DNA of 64,000 nucleotides from positions 66,061,001 through 66,125,000 of the forward strand of contig NC_088922.1 in NCBI RefSeq assembly GCF_038396675.1, written 5' to 3'. The stretch's first letter is position 1. Each line of letters starts with the position of its first letter. Shown one piece after another: positions 8,189-61,864 of this stretch. A program made the translations under genes and the position numbers. The DNA comes from Hydra vulgaris. Lineage: Eukaryota; Cnidaria; Hydrozoa; Anthoathecata; Hydridae. The notes beneath the pieces were generated by a model. That model was not told the origin of the DNA, did no database searches, and saw only the letters and a list, made by a program, of their open reading frames with translations.

Positions 8189-9418
8189 TCACTCCAAGCA
8201 ATCAGAGAGTGTTGGCTTCTTATCACGACAAGAATAAATGGTACTATCATCAGAAAACAACACCACCTTAAATAAGAGAATATCTGGAAGATCGTTAATG
8301 TAGATTAAAAAGAGTATAGGGCCAAAGGTTGAACCTTGAAGAACCCCTGAAATGACAAGATATGACAAAGAAAGCTGTCCATCGAGGACAACTTTTATAC
8401 TACGATTGGAAAGGAAGGATTCAATAATCTTAAAGATGTTACCAGATACACCATATAAAGAAAGCTTATGGAGAAGACCAGCATGCCAAACTTTATCATA
8501 AGCTTTAGAAATGTCAAGACCAATGTCCTTAACCTCTCCACCTTTATCTAATGTACGATAAAAAGTATTGGTTATTACTATTAGCAAATCAGCTGTAGAA
8601 CGAGAAGATCGAAACCCATATTGATGATCAGAAAAAAAGTTATTAGATTCAAGATTAGAGATTAACTCTTTGTTAATTAAAGATTCAAAAACCTTGCTTA
8701 TGATAGGAAGAAGACTAATGAAACGGTAGTTAGACAAATTAGACTGCTCTCTAGAATTTTTAAAAATCGGGATAACAGGTGCCGCTTTCCAGCAGGCTGG
8801 AAAACAAGACTCTGATAAGCACTTGTTGATTAGTTTTGAAAGTATAGATGACAGCTCCGGAGAACACTTCTGCAAGACTAAAACAGGTATGTTGTCCAGA
8901 CCACAAGCTGTAGAAGAGTCTAAGCAAAAAATTTCTATAGAAACAGAAGCTGGAGTGATACGAATGTCAAGCGATGGATCAACCTGTTTGTAGGCTATAT
9001 CAGGTAGAACCCAACTAGTGGAATCAAGAGATGATATTGATGAAAATTTCTTAGAAAACGATTCAGCTTTGTCTTTAGGAGAGAAGACAATGTCTGAACC
9101 ATATAAGAGAGGCGGAATAACAGATTTACCCTTATTGTTGATACTATTAAAGATTCTCCAGAAGTCACGAGAGCTAAATTTCTGTGATGAAATATAAGAT
9201 TTCATGACCTGAGAATAGCGGCTTTTGGCGTTAGACAAAACCTTTTTACAATTGTTTCTAGCAGTAATAAACAGACGTCTATTTTCTGGAGAATTGTTTT
9301 GCTGATAAACATGGAAGTAACGGTTTCGATTGGCAATTGCAGCAGCACAGTGTGAGGAAAACCATGGAGGAGAAAGAGGCTTGACCTGGAATCGTCGAGA
9401 GGGAACAAAAGATTCCAT
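8189..9418 (-). CDS. Reverse transcriptase fragment, CR1/Jockey-like
   Basis: A 409-residue open frame. It would copy element RNA into DNA at the nicked target. After a ~180-residue linker shared with the copy at 58.5 kb, RT motifs appear in order: 'NYRFISLLPIISKVFE' (~230-245), 'HQYGFRSSRSTADLL' (~267-281), motif A 'LDISKAYDKVWH' (~302-313), motif B 'SGVLQGSTFGPILF' (~356-369) and motif C 'FSDD' (~388-391). The catalytic aspartates are kept although F/YADD reads FSDD. A stop truncates the frame about 25 residues after motif C, so the thumb region is lost. The first ATG is probably not a true start, because the endonuclease should be fused upstream. Confidence 0.85.
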   Translation of the reverse strand: MESFVPSRRFQVKPLSPPWFSSHCAAAIANRNRYFHVYQQNNSPENRRLFITARNNCKKVLSNAKSRYSQVMKSYISSQKFSSRDFWRIFNSINNKGKSVIPPLLYGSDIVFSPKDKAESFSKKFSSISSLDSTSWVLPDIAYKQVDPSLDIRITPASVSIEIFCLDSSTACGLDNIPVLVLQKCSPELSSILSKLINKCLSESCFPACWKAAPVIPIFKNSREQSNLSNYRFISLLPIISKVFESLINKELISNLESNNFFSDHQYGFRSSRSTADLLIVITNTFYRTLDKGGEVKDIGLDISKAYDKVWHAGLLHKLSLYGVSGNIFKIIESFLSNRSIKVVLDGQLSLSYLVISGVLQGSTFGPILFLIYINDLPDILLFKVVLFSDDSTIYSCRDKKPTLSDCLE

Positions 9419-9419
9419 G

Positions 9420-10490
9420 CCAGCTTGAATTCACGAAGTTATGTGAGAAGCACATTTTTCGACAGAAAGAAAAAAGATTTCTACCTGGGACATCACGAAG
9501 AAAATCGCGGAAAGAATCCCAGTCAGCTCTAAGGTAGTTGTAAGAGATACGATAATAGGGGGATTCAGATCATGAAAAAGAATGAGATAATAGTTTAAGA
9601 GAGATCAAACTGTGATCAGAAGCACCTAAGGGTGAATGTGGAGAAACTGAGCACTGACTAGGATTCAAAAGAAAAGTGAAGTTGGAAAGTTGACTATTTG
9701 AGTCTGAAAAGTGAGTTGGAAAGTTGACTATTTGAGTTAGGGATTGAGAAAGGCTAAAGTTGTGGGCTTTATTGCCTGCAGAGTCACTGACACTAGATCC
9801 AAGCCATTCAGTGTGATGAGCATTAAGGTTAACGACAACAAAAATATTGGCTGATGGATAAAGAGAGCGGGCTGGGTTAAGTTGATCAGAAATAACATCA
9901 AAAAGAGTGCAGTCTTAAGATGAAGGAGAACGATATAGAACAAAGAGAAAGGCGAAGTGGTGCTAAACGAAAGCACATGTGCACATGAAAGAGAATAGTC
10001 TGCACATGAAAAAGAGAATAGTCTGTGGATTCAAACCTAGTTTAACGGCAAATGGGTGAATTTTACGAATATAAATGCCCAGGCCAAGTATATGGCTATT
10101 GGAGTCTTTAAGAATTGAAGGAAGATAACCATCAACACTAAGATCACAATATGATAAGCTGAACTCAAATTAGTTTCACCAAGAGCTAGTAGGTTTAGTG
10201 AACTTTGCAAAAGGTAAGACTCGACTGAAGAAAGCTACTTCGAAGACCACAAATGTTAGTCAATAATAGGTTTAGAGAACTTGATGGTCTTTTGTGTTTT
10301 ATAGTTTTTGGTACTTTTTTCAATTTTAAATCTGTTAAAGAACTTGACTTAAAGTATAGATAGTAATAAGTAAACTGTTTAATAGTCCTAGCAATTGCCT
10401 CATTACTATTAATAAACTCTAAGCCGTAACAAAGGGCTCCAAATATAGCCTTGGCAGTGCACACCAATAGTACAAACAGGGACACCATCC
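9420..10490 (-). pseudogene. Apurinic-like endonuclease domain of CR1 copy 1, broken
   Basis: The endonuclease that would nick target DNA for this retrotransposon is readable but interrupted. An N-terminal start 'LLLTNICGLRSSFLQ' (about 10210-10270) matches the opening strand of such domains. Around 9790-9850 'VVVNLNAHHTEWLGS' matches the GDFNAHH-type motif with G and D lost. 'ASDHSLISL' near 9610-9640 matches the SDH active-site motif. Stops and frame changes between these segments make it inactive. Confidence 0.75.
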
Positions 10491-21400: not shown

Positions 21401-22107
21401 TGTTTGTTAGATTGTTTTTACTAAAAGTTGAAAGTTTGCGTTCATTTATTTTTATAATTTTGGGTAGATCATTTGGAATAACTTTCATATCTTTTATATT
21501 GGAAAATGATAACAAGTATCAGAAAAGGAAGTTGTCACTTCCTTTTCTGCTCATTATCTCCAAAACAAGTTTCGAAGGCCATAAACATTTTTGCACCGTC
21601 CACCTCTTTTTTTAAGAATATTATCTTAAACACAATCAGATCTATCTCGAAGCAATTCCGTTCCTTTTATTAGCTTTTATATGCAGTCTAAATATGCATT
21701 GATAATCACGTTTTAAATTTAACATTCTTAAATTATTATTTTGAGAATTATTTGTTTTTTGTAATTACATCCTAATAACCAGTTTTATCATTCATTCAAC
21801 TCAATTATAAAATAAATATAAAACAATCGTTTTATATTTATTTTATAATTTTTAATTATTTTAATGACAGATTGCTGTCATTAAAAATCATTAAAAAAAT
21901 TTTAAAGCTAAGGTAAATTATGAACTAGTTTTTAACTAATTTATTAGTTTTTAAAACACTTCGATTATGTTTCTAATATGGTTCTTACAACTTGGGAAAT
22001 TTAAAGTGATTTTAGGGTATTATTTTTATTTTCTGAAAGAATAATTTTTTCATCTCATGCAAGTAGACAACAGTTTTATAAATTTTGAAGTTTTTACAGA
22101 TTCCCAA
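21401..22107. other. AT-rich interval with small hairpins
   Basis: Hairpins at about 21517-21545 (agaaaaggaagt/acttccttttct) and about 21807-21845 (palindrome around acaatcgt). No gene found. Confidence 0.45.
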
Positions 22108-23399
22108 ATGTCTGGAGACCTGAGTGTAACATACACATGTATATGACATATTTTATATTGACCACGTATAGGTGATGTGTAGAAAAAATCTCCTAGCTCT
22201 ATTGCTTCATTTTGCGTCAATCTATTAATTTAAAGTTACGCGAGAAAACAGAGGTTAATCAATCAATCACTAAAACTGTACAGATTTTGGCGCAATATGA
22301 ACCAATAATCATAGCAACCTAAAAGTTTGTGTGCAAGCTCCTTAAGGATATAGGAGTCAGGTTTAAAATATACATATGAGTATCTTAGGGTAAAGTACTT
22401 CCCCATGGGGGAAGCACCCCACCTTGACTTCGGTTTTAATAGGGCTATTAACTTAAAGTAATTCCATGCATAATTAAATTGTATACTATTTTGTTACAAT
22501 TACATTCTTTCATTTTGAGAGAAGGTGGGGATTAGATATCGTCTCAAAATCTCTTCCCCTCCCTTATGCCCACCCAATAATTTATGTATTGTAGGATACT
22601 ATTTTTTTAATATTTTGGCCTAATTGAACTAGATCGAGTTAAGGATTTACTCTTTCTGGTAACAATCTAAACAATTTATCCATAGATAAAGTGTATATAA
22701 CCTTTACATATCGGAAGTAATGTACATTTGTACTCAACTTTCCAATATTAACATGTTTTATCTACCCTATAAGTTTTTGATTTGTTTAATCTTTTTTTTA
22801 CATCTTAACTATTTCATGCATTTATCATATTTATAAATCCATCAAGATGTCCAAATCAATCCATCAAGATTATCAAATCCAAACCAGTCAAGATGTCCAG
22901 TTAGGCTGCCAACCAGAGCTGACGTTATCAAGCACTTCCTCTATCTGAAAGAGAAGAATAGTCCAACTTCCTGTCTTTTAAGTAACAGCTTCGGGTAACT
23001 TTTTAAAAAGAACCTAACACAAATATAGTATGCTTTTTCAACTTTTTTTTCAAAGTAAGAAAAAATTGTTTTTTGCTTACTTTGAAATCATGAAAAAGGT
23101 AACAAGTCCAATCATGAAAAAACAGGTTTTTATCCATGGTTGGACCTGTTACCCTTCAAATGAATACATCAAAATATATTGATATATACTTGAACCTTAA
23201 GAAAAGCCAGCATAACAGTCAGAGAGGATATGCTCAATCACATGTGCAATTTGTGAGATCATTTTGTGGTTCCTTATCAATCTTTTTAAGGATAATTTTT
23301 TTTTATTTATGACAAATTAAATATTTTAAAAATTAGGATTTAATTTTCTTAGTAAGTTTTAAAACGATTTTTTATGATTAGGGCTGTTCTGACTGAGTG

Positions 23400-26107
23400 A
23401 TACAAAGAAGAGTCTAATAAAAGCTATCAAAGCAGACAAGGATTGGCTTCCATCTGACAAGTATGAGGATATAATTTTTCTGAATGATCAGAAGGGAGAA
23501 AGGAAAATGACTCAGGGACCTATTGACAAGCAAAAAAAGGAGATCAAATTGAAGAGAGTGGAGCATGTAAAGAAATCCGTTACTGTTATTTAATCTACAG
23601 AAGATGAGCCTATTCCTAGTACCTTAGGAGTGGCAAAACAGAATCAATTTCTGAGTCCAACTCAGAAAATGAATTCACACCTGTTTTGAAAAACAAAAGA
23701 CAGTATTAGACCATTACGTTACTGAAGAATTTATTGAAGAAACCAGCTCATAAAATGACTGCAACATTAACTAAGCTGAACAGAATTACAGAAGCAGGGG
23801 GAGATCCCAATGAATTACTTCTTTCCTATACTAGAAATTTAATATCATTAACCAAGATGCAGACAATATAAAGATTTTCATAAAAAATGAGATTAAAAAT
23901 GATAGTAAGAAGATTCAGTTATACTTTGATGGAAAGCTCTTCAAGTTTATTATATATGTTACTAAAAAATAAGCAAATTGAACTGATATTTTGTAAACAC
24001 CTACCTTATAATGTTTCCAGGATTTGATAAAACCTCATGACGATAAGGCAGTTGACAATTATTTCAAGAGCAGGACAAATTGATCATCTACTTGGTGCTC
24101 CAGAAATTTCTTTTGGAACAGGGCTAAATCTGTTCATTGTTATCAAGTTAATTCTGACAGAGTTTGATGTTGCTGATCAAGTAAGAATTGTTTGCTTTGA
24201 TACAACTAGAAGCAACACTGGAATAATTCATGGTGCAATAGACGGGTAATGATTTACAAGTTTATAACTAAAAGCTCAATCAAATTTACAATATATAATT
24301 TCTAGTTAGTTTTATTCATTATAAACTCACAAAGCATATGGATGTGTATTTTCCTCATATTGCATTTTAGTCTTTGTTTTAATATAACAGTTCTTTTATT
24401 TTTTATTACGTTGTCTGATGAAAAAAAAAATTCTGTTAACATGTGGGTTTAATAAAATAAGCTAGAAAAGAACATTAGTTTATTGAGAAATGATATTGGG
24501 AAACCATTGTTAATATTTTCATGCAGAGATCCTGTTTTAGAATTTATTCTAAAACATTTCTGGATGGCTGTAATTACTGACCAGACTTAAGGGACCTCTT
24601 CAAGGGTTTGAAAGAGAAATGGCATAATGTTGATTTCGAAAACTCTGTCACCTCCCACTTCAAGTGTCAATCTTATCTTGGTACTTGGTTAGAAAAACTG
24701 GCAAATTTGGCTAAGAATAATTTTTTTATTATTTTTTAGGTGCCCCAAGAAGTCCTTACGGTCTTATCTTAGAGCACCGCGGATGAGCATTTAATTGGAA
24801 GTTCACTCCTCTTTCCTAACCGATGTCGCAAAACTTGCCCAGAGGTCGGGTTTAAAACACGGATCCATTTTTTCTGAGGCATGTGCGCTATCACTGCGCC
24901 AAAAAAATATTTTTTATCATGGGAAAAAATATGAACCTTTAATAACTCGAAAAAATATGAATTTTTTAATACTGAACTCCCCTCTTCCCTACCCAGATGG
25001 TGAAGAAAAATAAAAAAACATATTCGCATAAAAAATAAAATAAATTATTTTACATAATAATTTTTTTTATTAATTACATAAACTTGCGGATTTGGCCCTC
25101 ATGTATCTTGGATTCAGCATTTAAGCCTCCCCGCATTCTTAAGCCTGGTGCACCGTGCCCGTTTCACGGCAAAAGATAATTATTACCTGAAAATCACGCT
25201 TTTTCTCAATCAGACCAAGGAGCTCCTGAATCTGAACAAGGAGAGGATATTATATGTGGAAAGGATGGCAAATTTCATCTCCATTTTTTATACTCCCAAG
25301 TTTCCGACTGCTGAAATATCAGACAACAATATTTGATTAACAAAACACCTACCTTTGCAAGACCAGCACTTTGTTTGACAAATGGCCCACCTGGAGGTAT
25401 ATGAACCCGCAGCAGCAGTGGTTTTTCGCAGCTGGGAAAACTACAGTCGGTATTTGAATCCCACAACCGTAATCTTTGACCTTGCCAATTCGGATGAGTC
25501 TGTCTCTAATGACATAAAGGAGAAGATGGCAAGGAAACTAATGGACTGCCCTAGACTAAAGGCCTATGAATTTGATAGAGGTAATAATTCTGGATTTATA
25601 AAAAAAAGGAGGACTTTATCCAGTTAAGTGAGCCACCTACTCTTGCTGATTATGTAGGTTTTGAATCTAGTTTTTGATATCCCGGAACATAATGAACAGC
25701 AAGTCAAGTGGCTCTTGTTTCCTTCTGCTGCATGGAAAGTTGACGCCAACTTTCAAAGCTTTTCTCAAAAACTTGGCATAGTAAATGATGTTGCAAAGAG
25801 AGCAGTAAAGGCATTTCAGGAGTCAGTTGAACTAACTTACCAGGAGAAGAAGCTCCAGAAAATGCTTCTTTTAAAGAGAAAAGTCGACAAACCCCTTTCC
25901 AGAACTAAAGCTGCTTACAAAATAACTGCTGCTGAGCAACTGACTCCAGCAGAAAAACTTAGCCTCATATATGAGGAAAAGGCTTTTGAAGAAACAGAAG
26001 TTTTCAGCAACAGTGAACTTGACAGCAGTATTGATATTGTGGGAGTGAATGATGTTCTGGAGGTTCTGAGAGGAGAGAATGAGGCCCTAAACAATGCTGA
26101 AATCTAA
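23400..26107 (+). pseudogene. CFDTTxSNTG-family transposase-like protein, decayed
   Basis: Segments in order: charged N-terminus 'KADKDWLPSDKYEDI'; 'LTKLNRITEAGGDPNELLLS' (23770-23825); 'IQLYFDGKLFKFI' (23917-23955); 'GAPEISFGTGLNLFIVIKLI' (24085-24160) and 'VRIVCFDTTRSNTGIIHGA' (24180-24240), whose D would fit a second RNase-H-fold aspartate; 'LFKGLKEKWHNVDFENSV' (~24600); 'FTAKDNYYLKITLF' (~25160); 'VVFRSWENYSRYLNPTTVIF'; and a 148-residue C-terminal frame (25661-26107) with 'WKVDANFQSF' and 'LGIVNDVAKRAVKAFQ'. The order matches an uncharacterised family I recall from insects and cnidarians. Stops, frame changes and a SINE make it inactive. Confidence 0.6.
24721..24900 (-). mobile_element. 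tRNA-derived SINE
   Basis: On the reverse strand the head reads ggcgcagtgatagcgcac (24883-24900), a clear RNA polymerase III box A (TGGCNNAGTGG type). About 30 bp downstream is gtgttttaaacccgacc, a degenerate box B (GGTTCGANNCC). A ~110-bp body follows, ending ggactt, cttggggcacc (24739) and an A-rich tail taaaaaataataaaaaaa (24721-24738). Head, spacing and tail are those of a tRNA-derived SINE of about 180 bp. The parent tRNA was not identified. Confidence 0.75.
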
Positions 26108-26661
26108 TATATTTTTTAATTGAATCTTTTTTTTAATTTAAGGTTTCATGTTTCTGCTAAAAGTACATGGAAGGGCAAAAGAATAATATAAAATCCCTCC
26201 CCCTTTCTATATAAATAAAACAATGGGAAAGTCTACAGCTCCCTCCTCTCTCCATATCTAAAAGTTTTTGAATTTTCCTAAGTTTTTAAGATTTCATCAC
26301 TAAATTTTAGTAAGTTATTACTACTGTTGAGAATTGTTACTAAGTGGAAGGGCCAGACCCTCTTGGGGAAAAGTTCTCTGCCTCAAGATACGGAAATTTA
26401 TATTTTAAAACTGGCATCTTTATGCTTAAGGAGCTTGCACACAAAATTTTAGGTTGCTATGACTATATCATAATGCGCTAAAATCTGTTTGATTTTAGTG
26501 ATTGTCCTCTGTTTTCTCGCGTAACTATAAAACATTTGTTTGGTGCAGTATGAAGTAATAGAGTTTGGAGCTTGATTTTTTCAGCACATCATCTATACAT
26601 GGTAAAATATAAAATATATGGTATACACGTGAAATATTTTAAGGCGTCCCTCAAGACCCTC

Positions 26662-27069: not shown

Positions 27070-28800
27070 TTTAGCAAGTGTTTTTAAAACTATGTTTTTA
27101 TAAATTATTGAATGGAGAACATAATTCACAAATAAACTGTTATAAGCCTGATGTGCATTCTTCATGAGCCCATTTTTGGCAAACCTGGCATTAAATTCAC
27201 TGTTCTCTTGATCTGCTGTTAGCAAATTGTTCAAAATAATAGATGCATAGATACTCTTCATCTTCAGATGAATTTAACACTGTAGAATTTTTTGCTTTAG
27301 CAAGATTTGATTTTATCAATTCTTTTTTACTTCCAATCATAAATGGTTTACGATTCTTAATAATAGTTTTTTTATTAGTTTTTTTCTTTTTATTATTAGC
27401 AAGCCATGCTTTGACAGGTGAGTCAGTAAGAATCATAGTTGAACGTTTTTTCCTACCTCTTTTCGATGCTAAACTTGCACCTGCTTTAGGCAGAGGCCTA
27501 ATACTCTCAGGTGGTAGGATTATATTTTTAAAAACTAATGAGGTGTTTGGGTCGTGATTTGAGGTTTTGTTTGATACAACTGGATCTTCTATTGTTATGT
27601 CTACCCGATTATCTGGTATCTGAATAGATTCATTAAAACTTTTATTTGTTGAATCTGGTTGCATTGAATAAGGTTTGCAGTCATTTTTATTTGAGTTAGC
27701 CTGTGAACAAGGTGGGTCAGGGTGATCAGTTACATAGTTAGGATAATAATCACTTTTAGTAAAAATATCTGGATTTAATGGGTAAATACATTTCGCAGCA
27801 TAACCACTTAAAGTATTGTGGGCAGAAACAGCCTTTGGAAATGCAATGTTTCCTAGTTTTGGAATATCATATATTGTAACGGTTTTTCCAGGATTCATTA
27901 CCAACCATGAAGTCATAGCAGTATTTATATAGTTTTTGAAGAGACAGTAAACTGCCTTATTCAAGGGCTGCAACCTATTTATGCAGTGTGGTGGAAAGGT
28001 AAGCATTACTATTCCATTATTTTTTGCCAAATCTAATCCTTCAATATTAAGATGGGTTTCATGATAGTCAAGCAACAATAAACAAGGTTTTTCTTTAGTG
28101 AATTTTGTATTGCCTAAAAAATGTTGCAGATATTTTACAAAGTTTTCTTCTTTCATCCAACCTTTTGCATTAGCATCTCCTGCTTTTTCTGTTAGTGCTC
28201 CTAATTGGAAATGGTCTTTAAAGATTTTACGAGGAAAAATGAAAAAAAGTGGAATGCTATTTCCAATAGCATTTATTGTGCATGCTAATGTTACAAGAGT
28301 TCCTCTTTCAGCTGGCGTGATGGCTCCTACTTGTTTTAACATTTTTTTGGCAATAACCTTTTTAGGTCTTTGTACAGTAGTTACAGCTGTTTCATCCATG
28401 TTCCAAATGTCATTTGGTGAGAACAATTAGTTTTGCATACAGTGCTGCAAATAGCTAAAATATGATGCAACATTCTGCTTATTGAAGCTTATTGCTCGAC
28501 TTAAACTAGAAGCTTCAGGTAGCCTAATGGAAATATTTGAATGGCGCTTTAAAAATCCTGTAAACCAATCCTTCCTAGCTTGTTCCAGCCCAAGAAAAGG
28601 GAACTTTTGTATTATTTTTAATTGCATGCTGGAAACCAAGCTTTTTTACTTCAGTAAGAGTTACACCAAAATAAATTTCTGCTGCTCGCAACAGGTACGT
28701 GACAAGTTCTTTTTCTACTTTGTCTGGCAATATCTGTCGATTTTTGTATCCTATAATATTATAGCAGATGTAATTTTGATTTTAATCAATTAGATCTGTT
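27070..28800 (-). pseudogene. pogo-like (Tigger/Jerky type) transposase with C-terminal PHD-like finger
   Basis: A cut-and-paste transposase of the DDE_1 class. N-terminus (28640-28790): 'LRAAEIYFGVTLTEVKKLGF'; CENP-B-like helix-turn-helix part (28427-28639): 'ARKDWFTGFLKRHSNISIRL' and 'ISFNKQNVASYF'; catalytic region (27197-28426): 'DIWNMDETAVT' (first D), 'LLLDYHETHLN' (second D kept, family N replaced by Y), 'HCINRLQPLNKAVYCLFKNY' (third D of QPLD replaced by N). After a basic segment, 'EQFANSRSREQ' and, frame-shifted, 'CQVCQKWAHEECTSG' and 'ICEL' form a PHD-like zinc finger. Lesions: frameshift near 28590, in-frame TAA at 28427-28429, frameshift near 27195. TIRs not located. Confidence 0.85.
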
Positions 28801-35059: not shown

Positions 35060-37347
35060 TCAACAAGTTATATTACAAATTCTAATATACGATTTTCCAA
35101 CGAAAACGTGTTGACTGCAAAACGGTCAATCACGTTTTTAAGATTTACTGGAATTTCGCTGTGCATATTAAGTAAGGCCAATCCGACTAGTATGTTTTCT
35201 GTCATTCGTGTTCTCAGCCAACTTTTTATTCTTTGCTGGGTTGAGAACCTACGTTCAGCACTGGCGACTCTTACAGGACATGACTTGATAATTTGAAACA
35301 ACTTGTGAGTGATTGGATATTGCACCTGGTCACACAAATCAAAAGCAAAAGAAAGATTAGTAGGTGTTGTGATTTCTCCTTCATCTTTCATCTTTGTACA
35401 TTTGCACTGCCATTGTTCAACTTCCGATGTAAATTCAGGTGCATATAAATTTTGGATACTAGATGCAAGAACGACAGCATAGACATTGCAGAAAGAGTTT
35501 CAACAATATCTTTATGATTCAGTGTAATAATACTTTTTGACTTTAAAGCATAGATTTGAAGACATTGTAAATTTTAATTAGAAAAACGTATACTTTAATT
35601 AGAAAAACGTATGTTCAATATTAACGCATCAAGTAGAGGGATGTAAATTGATCGCCTGCAATATTTTTCCATTGTATTCAAAGGTATATTTTTACGACAT
35701 GTCTTTCGTTGTACTATTCTTTTGAAGGTAAAACTACTATCTTTTGCAATTGTTTGTGGCTAAAAATTTCCTTAAACATTTTTTCGCAGTTTTCTCTTTT
35801 ATGTTTTAAAACAATTAACAGGTTTTTAATGCAATTTTTTCGCTTTATGTAAATCTAAACTTTTTTTTGAAACAACTGACTGAGCCCAATTGTTAAAGAG
35901 AACACATGTACTGCACAGCCTAAAGACACAATAAAATTTCTTTCTCTAATTTATAGTAATATATTTCTTGCTTTTAATGAAGATGTTCTGTCATTTCATT
36001 GAGATATATTTTCCATTGCATCAATTATATGTAGTAATTTAAAACTAAACGTCGGCAAAGCATCATGCCTTTCAACCCATCATGTTTTGCAGAGTGAAAG
36101 CAGTTATAAATTTAGCATTATTTTATAATAAAATTTTGTTTTTCAGAAGCATTAAAAAAAGTAACAACTTCGCTAATAACCCCAAAACAACTTCTTATTG
36201 CTGGTACGTTCGAACTCTTCGATAAAGTTAAATTTAAAGTATGATTATAACATGGACACCAAACAGCATAACAGTACAACCACATTTTGTAAAGAAAGGT
36301 GTAACCTTTTTTCCAACATGTTTATAACCAATTAACCAATAACTTTGCTGTCAAGAATAAGTTGATTGTAATTGGATGCATTATTATTAGTTTGATGATT
36401 TTGATCATACAAATCAACATATCAAAATCTTTTTGAATTAATCCATCAGGCATCAAATAGCGTAATATTATTGTCATTTGTGATTGATGTGATACATCAA
36501 TCACAAATTTTTTTGTCAAACATAATAGCATAGCAATTTGATTCTCTTACACGACTCACAATTTTTCACATATTTCTTCTCCACAGCATTCAATTAAAGC
36601 ATTTTGTGTAGTTTTGCTTATGTATTTTGCAGAAACTTCAGCTGTTTTCAAATAATTTTCTAACTTTAAATTACCACAGTTTACTCTAAATTTTAGCAAC
36701 TCTCGAAAATTATCTTCATTTGTTATAACATTAGAATTGTCATTGTCTATGTCTAATAAGCTGCCTTAATCTTTGGCCTCTAAAAGGAATATTTTGCCTT
36801 CCTAAAAATATAATTGTTTCAACAACAGGTTTCAATTGTTGACAATTTTCTAAAACCTATTGAAGCCATTGAGTGTTTACTTTATTTACAATATCCATTG
36901 CTGGTTTATTATAATTTTTTAAATACGCCTTCCTGTTTCAATAGCTTCATTGTGATATATTTTTTTTCGTGACTTGCTAGATCTCCTTCCTTGCCAATCA
37001 GTTAAGAAAACACCTGTAATAGTTGCTAAACTAACTTCTGAAGTGCAGCTTGTTTGTGAGATCCTGCAGTCCAGTGGTATGAAAATAATGTACAACATTT
37101 GCAGTATAATCCCTTTTTACAATATGAATATACTAACCATTCGTAAGCATTTGTATTTTTCCAGATGAGAATGATTAAGATATCGATTTTCTCGATTCTT
37201 TTTCTTAATGTGAGCTGAATGCGGCATTTCGTAGTCAGTTGATGTTTTCCATGGCAATTCTAACAGATTGTTTATAGTTACATTATCAATAGTTGTACAG
37301 ACAAAGTTTTCAATGTCATTAATAAACCCAGCATTTAAAATCTGACT

Positions 37348-37355: not shown

Positions 37356-40218
37356 CAGGCCCTATCAGAGGGGGGGCCACACGGGCCATTTGGCCTAGGC
37401 CTCGACCTAAATAGGGGCCTCTAAATTTTATCGGAAATTTAATATATTTTTATTAAATTGTAATAACATGAGCAATTACATAAAATTTAATCAATGTTGA
37501 GACAATATTTTAATATACTTAATTAGTTGATTATTAATACACATAATTATTATTTTAATTAAGTTATTTGTGTTGTATTAAGTTTGTTCTAATATTTATT
37601 TTAATTCAGTCATTAATAATTGTTGTTTGCAGCAAGATCGAAAACTTTTAAAACTAATGTCATTGCTAAATTTATACATGAAGAGAAAATTTGAAAGTGG
37701 TGCATCCAAAAGGCGAAAAAGACAAAAAATTGAAGAAGAAACGAAGAGCCTAAAGTCAATAACATCATTTCTAAGACCACTGGAAAATCAAGTCAACCCA
37801 ACACACGGTAAATCAGATATTGAAATATCCGGAACTACATCTTCTGAAAAATCAATGTTACAACAAAACAAAAATCCTCAGATAAATACAAATGTGCAAG
37901 ACATCTCAAATACAACTTGTGTCTCTGAATCTGGAATTACAGATTTAGAAAGCTTGGAATCAAATTGTGAAAATTCATTGATTCACCAAGGCAACAGTCA
38001 GCAAAGGGAAACAAATTTGCAAGCCATCTCAAATGATAATTGCATCTCTGGTTCTGAAATTTCATATTCAGAAAGTTTGGACCAAAAATGTGAATCAGAT
38101 TGTTCTAATATATCAAAATTGATTGTGTCTGACATTGCTTTCTTTTGAACAAAAGTGATTCTAAGGTATCCACCTTTTTAGAAAAGTTAGATTGGAATAT
38201 CACCGGGGTTTGGAGAAAGTTTAAAGACCGAATACCAGCACATGAAATGTCTGTATTATATGTCAAATGGAAATCAGCCAGTAGAGCAGCCATCAGAAAA
38301 AGTTCTATTGATAATTTACTAATAACAGAATTGTCAACTGAAACCAGTAATTGGACAAAACTTCTTAAGCGCCTTTTGAACGTCATTCTTTTTCTTTCTC
38401 AACGTGGGCTTGCTTTATTTGGTTCCAGTCAACACATTTATGACCCTGACAATGGAAACTTTCTCGGAATAATTGAGCTCCTCAGCAAATATGATCCAAT
38501 TTTATCAGAGCATGTAAAAAAGGTCCATGAATCTCAACTGAACAAAAGCGCTTACAAGTTCATTATCTGTCCACCCGGATTCAAAATGAATTTATTGAAC
38601 TCTGTGGATCAATTGTGAACAAAAAAATCTTTTGTTCAAACCAAAATTATTGAAGAGATTCAAAACACCAAATATTTTTCAATTGTTGTTGATGCAACAC
38701 CAGACTGCTCTCACAAGGAGCAAACAACTTTCATTATCCGTTATATAAAAATTGATGGATCTAAATTTTTCATTGAAGAACGGTTTCTCTATTTTGACGA
38801 TTACTCAAAAAAAAACTGGAAAAGAAATTGCAGCAAGGATTCTTCACGTTCTAACTTTGTTGAACATAGATTTTAAACTGTGTACTGGTCAGGCATACGA
38901 CAATGGTCCAAACATGGCTGGAAAATACAAAGGTGTGCAAGCAGTTTTTCTAGAAGAAAACCCAAACTGTATGTTTGCCAGCTGTGGAAATCACACTTTA
39001 AACCTTGTTGGTGTTGACTGTGCTGAATCATGCAAAGAAGCAATTCTTTACTTTGGAATTGTGCAGCAAATGTACAATTTCTTCAGCAGTAGTCCAGAAA
39101 GGTGGGAAATTCTCAAGCAACATGTATCTGCTTCACTACATGGTATTTCCAAGACCCGATGGTCAGCAAGGATTGAAGCAGTAAAACCAGTTGCCCGTCA
39201 CTTGAATTCACTGAGAACAGCTTTAAAAGAGCTGCAATCTCTCAATCTCACAGTATCAGCTCAGTCAGAACTTCAGTCCATTCAAAAGTATTTGTCAAAA
39301 TTTGAATGCAGTGCAATGTCATCTTTATGGATGAAGCTCCTCACAATGATTCACCAAACCAATCTTATAATTGAGGCAAGAAATGCAACTCTAGATGTTG
39401 AAATGGAAAACATTAAAAATCTCATGGACAGCATTCAACAGATTCGTGAAAAATGGGATGCTGTTCTGAGTGAGTCAAAATTAATTGCAATGAATATTGA
39501 CATTTCACCAGAATTTTTTACCACTCGAAAGTTGAAAACAAAATTTGATTCAGAACAGCACAATAAAATCAATGTATTTTATGTAATAATCGGCTCTATT
39601 CTAGAAGGTCTTAAACGTCGATTTGAGTCACAACAACAAATTTGTAGCATTTTTGGATTTCTTTGGCACTTCAACAAGATGAGCAATGAAGAACTACTCA
39701 GTGCCACAACAAACTTTCAAAAAAAGTACCACAAGGAAATACTGTCTGATACTTCTGATGAAATAATCTTTCTGAAACAAATTTACTCCACAAACTTTAC
39801 ATCAGATTGCAAACCAAAAGAATTGTTTCAAGAAATATTAGAACTTGGACTGTCTGGTGTTTTTCCTAACATATCAATTGCTTTGCGAATTTTTATCAGT
39901 TTGCCTGTCTCAGTGGCTTCAGGAGAAAGGTCTTTCAATGTGTTGAAACAAGTAAAGAACTATCACTGTTCAATCATGGGACAAGAACGCTTGAATGGAC
40001 TTGCAATGTTGAATATTAACTGTGATATTGCAAGAAAACTCGATTTTTCAACAGTTGTCAGTGCATTTGCAAAAGCAAAAACAAGAAAAGCATTTTTAAA
40101 ATAAAAATTATGACTAATTTGCTGTTTTTTTATTTATTATGCAATGGCAGTTATTTTATGGTAAGGGCCTCAAAATTTGTAAATGGCCCGGGCCTCACTC
40201 AGTCTCTGAAAGGGCCTG
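37356..40218 (+). mobile_element. Complete hAT element, 2863 bp
   Basis: TIRs begin caggccctatcagag on the left and, reverse complemented, caggccctttcagag on the right, 14 of 15 identical, followed by further similar 'cgggccattt' blocks. Perfect 8-bp duplications flank it. It encodes one transposase in + orientation with only three visible lesions, making it the youngest autonomous-looking copy in the window. Confidence 0.93.
37627..40104 (+). pseudogene. hAT transposase, nearly intact
   Basis: Catalyses excision and integration of the surrounding element. Frame 1 (37627-38148): basic start 'KRKFESGASKRRKRQKIEEE' then 'SITSFLRP' and an acidic, Ser/Thr-rich linker. Frame 2 (38145-38618 and onward past a TGA): 'LDWNITGVWRKFKDRIPAHE', 'GLALFGSSQHIYDPDNGNFL', and 'FSIVVDATPDCSHKEQTTF' with the first catalytic D. 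Frame 3 (38752-40104, 450 residues): 'FKLCTGQAYDNGPNMAGKYK' (second D), 'CGNHTLNLVGVDCAES', 'GISKTRWSARIEAV', and dimerisation block 'LPVSVASGERSFNVLKQVKN' with 'LNGLAMLNINCDIARKL'. Lesions: frameshift near 38140, TGA at 38616-38618, and an indel in an A9 run near 38810. Confidence 0.9.
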
Positions 40219-49255: not shown

Positions 49256-49721
49256 ATGGCTTTGTTACCCACAAAATTTGTAATTACTCCTTCAAGTTCA
49301 TTATTTTGTCCTCTCTGTGAGAAACTTTTTAAAGATCCAGTAATTTCAACTTGCTGTGGACATACATTTTGTAGAAAATGTGTAGAAAACTCGTCAATTT
49401 TAAGTTGTCCGCTAGATGGTATCAGAATGGGATCAAATGTAATTGTTTCAAACCGTGCTGTGAATGGTCAGTTAGAAGACCTATTAATCTGGTGCAGACA
49501 TACACTATATAGGGTAGATTCAGAAGATGAATTTCAAGTAGATGAAGATGGTTGTCAAGAACAAATAATGCTTGGTCAAAGAGCTATACATGAAGAATCA
49601 TGTTTGAGTGCATGGATACCTTGCCCAAATAGCTCAAACCATTGTGGAAAATTTAGAAAAATGCATTTTAATGATCATCTTAAAGTTTGTGAATACAAGC
49701 GCTGCAAATTTGCTACAAAAG
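49256..49721 (+). CDS. TRAF7: TRAF7-like E3 ubiquitin ligase, first coding exon
   Basis: Encodes residues 1-155 plus one base (phase 1 donor AAAG|GTATCT). A RING finger occupies residues 18-54: C18, C21, C33, H36, C39, C42, C51 and D54; the eighth ligand is Asp, as I recall for TRAF7. After it come 'AVNGQLEDLLIWCRH', 'GCQEQIMLGQRAIHEESC', 'WIPCPNSSNHCGKF' and 'HLKVCEYKRC', the TRAF-type zinc-finger series, which continues in frame in the exon at 63355. Human TRAF7 has this order, with E3 activity and roles in MAPK/NF-kB signalling through a WD40 domain. The N-terminus is short, with no long Ser-rich leader; TGA before the ATG supports this start. Least repetitive, intact coding sequence in the window. 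Confidence 0.85.
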
Positions 49722-51605
49722 GTATCTTATATTATTAAATGCTATAACTTTGTAATTTTTTTAAAGGAAATTTTGATGACAAAAATATAATACATGAAAA
49801 ATTATTTAAACAAAAATCTGGTGATTTACTGCAATATTTATAAGACCATATGCAGTCAATATTTTCAAATGTTTCTAAATTTCAGTATTTTTAAATTTGT
49901 TTCCTCAAATTTTAACTTAAAATACTATTTAAGACACCAAATGGTTTAGAAATTATGATGTTTTTGCAATGTTGAGTCAATTTTTTGTTTTGTTAGTGTG
50001 GGTGACTCATTTTAGTAGTTGCTCAATTAGTAGACAACAAAATAAAAGACATTAGGCAGTCTAAAGAAAATGTAGCACCTTTATAAGTATTGTAAATTTC
50101 TACACAGTATTTTTGAAACTATAAATGAAATTAACATTTATATTACAATATTTTAGAAATATAATTTATTTTTTATACAATAATCTGCTCTACATATAGT
50201 TTAATAATTAAGTATTATTTCCAAAAATGCAACTTTAATTCACTGGCTGTGTCTAATGTGGAAGTCAATTCTTTTGTCAAATAACTAGAAATTAAATCAA
50301 TTTTTTTTTGAAAAAAGTATTAAATCTACTTACATGAAAACATATTATGCAAATATTTACATTAAAGTTTATATCATTTTAACAAAAAACTATTTTGTTA
50401 ACAAAAAAAGAAACATTAAGAAACTTTTTTTTCTGAGTTTCATCCATATCCCATAGAATCCCGCTAAAAAGTTGGTACATCATTTGTGCAACCAAAAGAT
50501 GTACCAACTGAGCCTTTGAGCTCTTATATCTTCCATTAGCTTCAAATATGGTTAGCTTGTAATTTTCAGTTCATATTTTCATCTGATGATACATTGATTT
50601 GAGGACTTTCTAGTTTCAACACTTTCTTTCGTCTGTTATGAAGAAATTATTAAACCTGTCATGATGTTGTAGTAACCTGTTTAATTTTGGTAATATCAAT
50701 TCCAGGTATTAATGTGGTATGTGGTATATTTTATGCCTTTTTTTGTCAGACAGGAAGTTTAAAATATTAAGAATTATAGATTTGAATCATTGCCACACCG
50801 AAAACAATGAGATTTGGTTTAGGAATAAGTAGCTGCAAAAGTTAATAGGATGGTGTTAGCTGTCCTGGTTGTTGTCAATTTAACTCTATCTTTAATGGTC
50901 AAGTCCAATGAAAGTTCTGTTTTATAAAATGCCTCTAGATTGTCTTCTTTAGGTTTAAGAAGTTGTTTTCAAATAGAAAGTGAATTCTAACATTAATGTA
51001 TCCAGTTTGATTTTGAAATCAGTATACCGGTATGGGCACGCAAATTTGCTCCCAAACTTGCACCCAAACTACCGTACTTAATTATAAATATAATTTTTGC
51101 ATAAGTTTTTTGTATTATGGAAATTAAAGGGAATTCTATAAAATATAGAATAAAAGTTAACGTAACATGCTCCTTGTCATAAATTTAGCGTAAATTGTGA
51201 TTTAATACAGTACCCGTATAAAAAAAAAAATCCTCAGAATGTCCATGGGATTCATATACTGCTGCACCAGTACAACTTCTATGGACATATAAAAAGTTTT
51301 TTTTTTAATGATGTTTCCAAATATCTTGTGTCATTTATTTGTCAATTGCTATGTTGATCTGCTGATAGGGGTTATGTTAGACATTTTTTGGTAAATTGTT
51401 CAGGTTGCTCACAAAGCTTTCAATTAATTTTTCTTATAGTTCCTTAAATGAGGGAAGTTTGTAGTGCATCACAATAGCTGTTAATATTTTTTGGTATTTG
51501 TTATCAAGTATTTTGATTGCATCATCATATGATGTAATCTTGGATTATTGTGAAACTTTCACTTTGCATAGATTAATTAAAACTAGAAACTTGCAGTCCT
51601 CTGGA

Positions 51606-60404: not shown

Positions 60405-61864
60405 CAGTCCCTGACCACAAAATTGTGATCACCTACAATTTTTGTGTATTTTTAACTTTAAGGGTTTGTAAAAAGTATACCAAAAGTACAATTGCAATAT
60501 TAATTATATTTTATTGATAAAACATGTTTCCTTAATAATAAAATAATATTTCAAAATCAATATACACACATTTTAACAAACAATTACTCTTTTTGATTGC
60601 AAGTCATAAAAAAATAATAATATTTTGTTATTCCTCCTTTTAACGAAATGACTTTAGCTATTTGGTCTGGCATACTTTTAATACAGTTTATTGCTGCTGT
60701 CTTAATTTTTTCATTGTGGTGCCAATGATAAAGTAATTTTTCAATCAAGTCCCTTTTGTTTGTTGAAACCTCGGAAGAAATTTCCTTCTTGAGAATGTTC
60801 CACAAATTCTCAATCAGACTTGAGAGTTCCCTGGTCAATATAAAACAGGGATATTTTTTGTTTTAAGGAAGTTTGTGATCATTTTAAGCTTTATGACATG
60901 GAGCACTATCATGCATAAACGTAAATGTATTGTTGTTTGGAAACCATTCTTGTATTTGGGGGATAAGTTAGCTCTCCATAACCTCTTGATATTGTATTTG
61001 GTTCGTCACCCCATTGACAATATAAAGTCTTCCATTGCCTTTACCACTGATAACTGACCACACCATAACTTTAGTTGGATGTTTAACAGTTTGTACAAGT
61101 CCATCTTAAACCAACTTCAGCCCACCGTCTCCTCACTGTGCGCTCCGAAACTTGTATTCCAGACTCTTGAATAAGTTTTGACAGCAAGTGGGATGATTTT
61201 TTTCTATTTTCTAGACAAATATCTCTTATAATTCTGTCTGTCCTGGGAGTGGTTTTACATTTTGACCCACTCCATCGTTTACTTTTTGGAGAAAGAGTGA
61301 TGTTGTTTTCCATTTTATGTTTGCTTTTATTGACTAATGGTTGCGAAACTTTACACATTTTAGCAATTTTCCGTTGTGAATGCTCTGAATGTTGTAAATG
61401 TGCTTTTATTTCTGGAATTTTGCTTGGACTTATGTCCTTACCGGTACCCATGTTTTTTTTTTTATTGAAGTTTTCAATTACAACCTATTACACTAAAAAT
61501 ATTAATAAAATGGTACTATATATATTAATTCTTGCTATTTATAATAACTTTATAAAATGTATTAAAAATAATAAAACACTTTTCACTAAAAAAAAACTGT
61601 TAAAATGTAAACAAATGTATGTGACAAATCAACCACGATTATTTTAAAATTGACAAAAATTCACATTGCTGACTTAAAACACACCTAACTTCACATTGGT
61701 CATGATTATAAAGAAATTTTCTTTTCTATTTTATTTGATAGATGTCAGTATTGTATAATAAGTTAGTAATAATAATATGCTCACCTTGAAATTACTTTAA
61801 AATAACTTTGAAAACAAAATATGTGGAAAAAATGAGGTGATCACAATATTGCGGCCTGGGACTG
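60405..61864 (-). mobile_element. Tc1-like element, 1460 bp, with TA target duplication
   Basis: Left end cagtccctgaccacaaaatt + gtgatcacct; right end, reverse complemented, cagtcccaggccgcaatatt + gtgatcacct: TIRs of about 30 bp with four mismatches. TA flanks at 60403-60404 and 61865-61866. Removing it joins gataaaatctat-ta-gttattacc, matching gataaaaagtattggttattact in CR1 copy 1, which proves the insertion. Confidence 0.95.
60584..61451 (-). pseudogene. Tc1-like transposase, internally deleted
   Basis: DDE transposase relic. N-terminal frame (61083-61451): 'MGTGKDISPSKIPEIKAHLQ', helix-turn-helix 'HSQRKIAKMCKVSQPLVNKS', second HTH 'TPRTDRIIRDICLENRKKSS' and 'SERTVRRRWAEVGLR'. The next readable part is 'TVKHPTKVMVWSVISGKGNG' (~61030-61090), so roughly 75 codons including the first catalytic D (family SDESxF) are deleted. 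Then 'NNNTFTFMHDSAPCHKA' (second D, ~60900-60945), and after a frame change 'SSLIENLWNILKKEISSE' (60770-60830, family DLNPIENLW; the D is lost in the broken segment) and the C-terminus. Cannot be active. Confidence 0.9.

Follow-up and report, generated by a model that had tools for sequence, protein, structure and literature searches.

The subject of this report is a 64,000-nucleotide stretch of the Hydra vulgaris genome (contig NC_088922.1, C3:66061001-66125000, hereafter the window), in which positions 21989-26638 are a DNA transposon with long terminal inverted repeats (TIRs) that carries its own transposase. This identification is based on a search of the genome (911 Mb, 15 contigs), because all nine of the places that retain both inverted arms also hold pieces of one and the same protein. 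An initial annotation, made from the letters of the window, had already read the locus as a TIR transposon with its transposase, and the other copies bear this out: at the two-armed places, neither the protein without TIRs nor the arms without the protein was found. We regard it as probable that the copy in the window, old and dead, derives from a cut-and-paste transposon that was autonomous, and that its transposase is a divergent hAT-like member of the RNase-H-like DDE (Asp-Asp-Glu) enzymes. In this way, an uncharacterised repeated protein becomes a transposase with known ends, a known duplication length, proposed catalytic residues, and intact sister copies.

The inverted arms claimed in the initial annotation are present. 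A repeat search pairs 22305-22400 with 26371-26466 (82%), 22187-22266 with 26494-26573 (78%), 22264-22300 with 26468-26504 (84%), and 22134-22159 with 26606-26631 (85%). In a window with a guanine-plus-cytosine content of 29.7%, the local alignment of one flank against the other scores 240, and 50 first-order Markov shuffles peak at 36. The ends given at first, 22108 and 26661, were wrong: alignment with the other genome copies sets the edges of family homology at 21989 on the left and 26638 on the right, and the better copies extend to a terminus resembling TAGGGGTGTTCATTTTT, which the window copy does not have. The left element end, including the left TIR arm, occupies 21989-22495, as seen from the copy alignment and the inverted repeat, and within it 22133-22411 pairs with the right arm; on the same two kinds of evidence, the remains of the right TIR arm occupy 26371-26638. 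The TIR length had also been put too low, at about 260 bp. The complete copy on contig C15 shows about 480 bp, of which the window copy has lost about 54 bp of the outermost left part and about 195 bp of the outermost right part. Because both termini are missing, no target duplication can be read in the window copy itself.

A genome search with the left arm returns 29 matches; sorting them by hand yields nine two-armed places (19 matches) and 10 single matches. Two of the nine, on C13 and at 61.69 Mb on C3, have flanks that are 98.8-99.3% identical and count as one segmental duplication, so that there are at most eight independent insertions. The loci involved, L013/L012 (C13:14.61 Mb) and L014/L009 (C3:61.69 Mb), show that a segment was duplicated recently between two contigs. 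Both true termini are present in the C15 copy, whose TIRs agree at 407 of 470 aligned bases and which is flanked on each side by GTGTTTAT, an 8-bp target duplication. No other copy of the window family has both ends readable in flanks free of repeats; the remaining ones gave no usable duplication, being truncated, lying in AT runs, or having been read at one end only.

The protein of the window copy is heavily decayed. It was mapped with a profile (A2) from whose construction the window sequence had been left out, and in a six-frame search of the window whole frames gave no match and shorter pieces did. The peptides singled out at the start are all there: FDGKLFKF in the profile match at 23838-23948, VCFDTTRSNTGIIHGA in the frame 24031-24249, and LGIVNDVAKRAVKAF in the frame 25658-26107. 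All pieces lie on the + strand. The N-terminal region is at 23381-23644 (profile positions 38-125, independent E-value (iE) 2.2e-9) and has an internal stop. The next piece, 23743-24240 (profile 170-314, iE 1.4e-18 and 8.2e-4), has internal stops and contains both Asp motifs: the first reads YFDGK (codon 23928-23930) in a different frame, at 23838-23948, and the second reads CFDTT (codon 24199-24201). It is followed by 24474-24608 (profile 314-358, iE 5.8e-5), by 24593-24709, which holds a conserved Trp (profile 357-395, iE 3.7e-5), and by the C-terminal region with stops at 25148-26104, of which 25148-25936 matches profile positions 440-695 (iE 1.2e-53) and the rest is an open tail. The pieces keep their order across 23381-26104, do not all share one frame, and are interrupted by stops. 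Between them lies a dispersed repeat of 162 bp (24740-24901), perhaps a short interspersed element, that was recognised by genome search, its left edge being sought within the query only. It has 39 other matches at 89-92% identity, counted in the best 40 of 3156 candidates; ARAGORN detects no tRNA in it, and its Rfam matches are all far below the curated scores. In the piece at 24474-24608, the window copy also reads CRDPVLE where the group has CRHHxxE, with loss of the His, and in the alignment NDxSERA appears as NDVAKRA, which replaces the proposed catalytic Glu with Lys (codon 25796-25798). The copy is dead, because its frame is broken, a repeat has been inserted, and both the His of CRxH and the proposed catalytic Glu have been lost.

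Relatives of this protein are numerous in the same genome. The C-terminal frame of the window copy, used as a query, has 146 genome matches with E <=0.001 (from the best 150 of 924 candidates), and a 722-amino-acid (aa) protein of the group, encoded at L051:1552-3717, has 85 (from the best 62 of 9211 candidates). The 722-aa family comprises seven near-identical full-length copies, six of them stop-free, and two of its copies are 99.7% identical across 3395 bp. This sister family is young, and the presence of such near-identical intact relatives in one genome suggests that the group has been mobile recently. Both ends could be located in six of the seven copies (in the seventh, the left end was not located), and exact 8-bp duplications flank five of these six, two of them, ATGGACAG and GCCTGTAG, where the flanking DNA is not a simple repeat. 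TIRs are also found in other sister elements: about 160 bp in L051/L052, 130 bp in L057, about 280 bp in L059 (without its AT run), and about 315 bp in L060. In L057, the ends and a duplication were looked for and not found, and L059 and L060 sit in AT runs, so that their flanks are uninformative for duplications. No long TIR was seen in the sequence stretch examined for L053 (about half), L054, L055, L056, and L058. Outside the Hydra genome, alignment queries of viral and prokaryote collections confirmed no relative; the DNA pattern for FDTTxxNTG occurs there in 55 viral and at least 117 prokaryote stretches, and none of these 172 has a profile-matching frame of at least 40 aa.

Could the protein be a host or captured gene that is carried by the transposon, rather than its transposase? 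In favour of this, it belongs to no Pfam family, and two conserved acidic positions are occupied by Asn and Lys at the locus L058. On the other side, protein and arms are found together at nine of nine two-armed places, sister proteins lie within TIRs of their own (L051, L057, L059, and L060), and the 722-aa elements show no other long open reading frame among frames of at least 150 aa. A captured gene is therefore extremely improbable, and we reject it on the grounds that the protein and the TIRs go together.

L051, L053, and L054 share, without variation, D255 (in HxDxK), D332 (in CxDTTxxNTG), the motif CRxHxxE, W397, and the motif NDxxERA with E674; when L059 and L055 are added, two positions vary, namely the Glu in CRxHxxE and the Ala in ERA, and the others stay invariant. 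The Glu of NDxxER may be the third catalytic residue of an RNase-H-like fold. When more members are aligned, the first Asp is replaced by Asn in L058, and the Glu of NDxxER by Lys in both L058 and the window copy. L058 (C7:20267000-20274000) is a diverged member with stops, and decay is likelier there than a new role. In the group, the spacing from the first to the second Asp is 67-68 (77 in L051), and from the second Asp it is 28-29 to the Cys, 65 to the Trp, and 342-362 to the Glu. In three canonical hATs from the same genome, the corresponding values are 66, 66, and 68 between the two Asp residues, 27, 19, and 26 to the Cys, and 87, 88, and 91 to the Trp; the spacing to the Glu, measured in two of them, is 330 and 351.

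Profile-profile comparison, another step proposed in the initial annotation, places hAT closest. Within the N-terminal half of the catalytic domain, the region from the first Asp to CxxH matches three Hydra hATs with a score of 29.2, which none of 100 and none of 80 column shuffles reach, and it scores 25.8 against whole hATs (0 of 60 shuffles). The P element profile follows at 19.0, which 4 of 80 shuffles also attain; MULE (two distinct proteins) gives 17.3 (3 of 60), and pogo (one protein) gives 10.9 (53 of 60). P element, MULE, and pogo were rejected as the nearest kin for this reason. On these profiles, the hAT match appears specific among the families tried, without reaching every hAT. 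The Asp of FDTT, which at the outset was said to be one that would fit an RNase-H fold, does lie in a stretch that profile-matches the RNase-H-like region of hAT, whereas the match over the whole length is marginal.

A P-type element with long TIRs would account for some of the same features. Target duplications of 8 bp are also known from the P superfamily, and four P-type proteins can be aligned with the group at the second Asp motif. Long TIRs are described for Galileo, a member of that superfamily, in a part of PMC3688188. However, the score of 19.0 is reached by shuffles of the P-type comparison and by none of 80 in the hAT comparison, and there is no P-type or THAP match in Pfam, even though the genome is rich in P-type proteins. 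We consider a P-type origin very unlikely.

Several observations weigh against the hAT-like reading. None of five group members matches the models for PF05699 (the hAT dimerisation domain), BED, or THAP, and none exceeds the cut-off of any Pfam model; six proteins or pieces likewise gave only weak matches below the cut-off. As a control, PF05699 is matched by four of four canonical hATs, which had themselves been selected with that model. A sequence search of the PDB with L051 and profile A1 found no transposase, and the one canonical hAT that was tried there finds Hermes. The spacing from the second Asp to the Trp is 65 in the group against 87-91 in the hATs. Over the whole length, the hAT match scores 26.5, a value that 1 of 150 shuffles attains; the reversed hAT alignment scores 23.3, and among four single hATs, L070 and L074 are aligned out of register. 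A decayed hAT of the window, taken as a single sequence, gives 12.0 with the region from the first Asp to CxxH (44 of 60 shuffles), and the hAT profile matches that same sequence at 28.4 (0 of 60). The region from the first Asp to CxxH was picked by its motifs, the hAT set consists of three sequences, and the other sets are small. A C-terminal hAT model lists five of eight members at no more than 3.3 bits, and the best shuffle reaches 9.6. Finally, the sixth 722-aa copy with two located ends, which lies in an AT-rich repeat, has no equal flanks. Because a defining hAT feature, PF05699, was tested and was not found, we use the term hAT-like for the group and do not assign it to hAT.

Another reading is that the group is a separate superfamily, related to hAT and P as a sister lineage and belonging to neither, which we think possible though rather unlikely. 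A part of PMC3985635 describes hAT and P transposases as one clade of RNase-H-like proteins, in which P elements alone are without the hAT domain. The group could, tentatively, be a third DDE branch beside these two, with a C-terminal region of its own replacing the hAT dimerisation domain and with no recognised BED or THAP finger. Such a branch might further be marked by TIRs of about 160-480 bp, by 8-bp duplications, and by many copies in one cnidarian genome, some of which apparently moved recently. The lack of hAT dimerisation, BED, and THAP matches in Pfam agrees with a separate superfamily, as do the TIR lengths of about 160 to 480 bp against 17 bp in Hermes (PMC10368747) and the fact that the second Asp motif weakly matches P elements as well. 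On the contrary, the hAT profile match and spacing and the 8-bp duplications point towards hAT, and TIR length varies within known superfamilies. If the hAT dimerisation domain is truly absent, the group would show in what way a hAT-like core can assemble and work without it.

The ends of the elements bear on another possibility, namely that the group is hATm, a family already proposed within the hAT superfamily, and is thus known but poorly described. The terminal consensus of hAT is YARNG. In the window family the ends are TAGGGGTG, and in the 722-aa family they are TAGGCAGG; TAGGG is terminal in the window family, L053, L059, and L060, and TAGGC in the 722-aa family. The longer TAGGGTG/CACCCTA form is seen at both ends of L059 and L060 and at the single end seen in L053, and is absent from the window and 722-aa families. 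As the L053 and L060 proteins are nearly the same, these ends represent two subfamilies. According to a part of PMC6004678, hATm was proposed as the fourth hAT family, with TAGGGTG/CACCCTA ends, duplications of 8-9 bp, and more than 74 elements in Repbase, and the ends of L053, L059, and L060 agree with this description. The duplications of Hydra hATm-3 are TATATATA in a figure legend of PMC8721813, and several of the copies studied here lie in AT runs. hAT-hATm is also named among the putatively active Hydra elements in the relevant portion of PMC12220107. On the other hand, PF05699 is said to be present in hATm-6 (PMC6004678, same part) and is matched by none of our five members, and the hATm ends are found neither in the window family nor in the 722-aa family. 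A TAGGGTG-type end also says little by itself, since CACCCTA is found about 880 bp downstream at L064, a hAT locus with PF05699. In our judgement, the chances that the group is hATm are evenly balanced. Among eight PF05699 loci inspected for such ends, five have the ER motif and one has CACCCTA. In L064, the sequence is TTTTTGAACACCCTA, at 2520 in protein orientation and downstream of the ER motif; the near relatives of L064 that were compared are without it, and it may belong to another element. We met no literature account of the group under the CFDTT motif, though no search was aimed at that motif and Repbase was outside the scope, and we make no claim that the protein group is unpublished.

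Returning to a divergent hAT-like transposase, which remains our preferred explanation, its mode of action can be sketched by analogy with hAT enzymes. The protein would bind the long TIRs, would cut the element out, and would join it across a staggered target site, which would leave the 8-bp duplications. Between the second Asp and the Glu, it has a long insertion that is presumably helical, as in Hermes.

Other features of the window include remains of further elements. Shortly beyond the right end of the element lies a 409-codon open frame with a DDE_1 match (27197-28426, - strand, E 2e-11), of pogo/Tigger type as judged by its motif. PF05699 is matched by two decayed fragments of hAT type at 38749-40101 (+) and 35071-35499 (-), with E-values of 9.8e-9 and 4.9e-7, and the former is unrelated by profile to the element studied here. 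A reverse transcriptase fragment (RVT_1, E 1.2e-22) is found at 8192-9430 (-) and a Tc1/Tc3-like helix-turn-helix fragment at 61086-61484 (-). The open frame at 49256-49735 (+) encodes a RING-type zinc finger and is possibly an exon of a host gene.

Among the known systems, the P superfamily resembles the group in its 8-bp duplications and in the alignment of the second Asp strand, and differs in that 4 of 80 shuffles reach its profile score and that no P-type or THAP model of Pfam is matched. hATm, compared by its published description, has in common with the group the 8-bp duplications and the TAGGGTG end of L053, L059, and L060, whereas the group shows no match to PF05699 and the window and 722-aa families end differently. 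Hydra hATx-6 carries both BED and PF05699 (PMC8721813), unlike the group. The comparison with hAT itself, for which Hermes and the genome's own canonical hATs stand, shows differences in the absence of PF05699 and BED matches, in the spacing of 65 against 87-91 from the second Asp to the Trp, and in the TIRs of about 160-480 bp. The likenesses are the spacing from the first to the second Asp and from the second Asp to the Glu, the CxxH after the second Asp, the C-terminal ER motif, the profile match from the first Asp to CxxH, and the duplications of 8 bp. The Hermes duplication has the pattern nTnnnnAn (PMC10368747), and T at position 2 and A at position 7 are likewise present in four of the six duplications found here.

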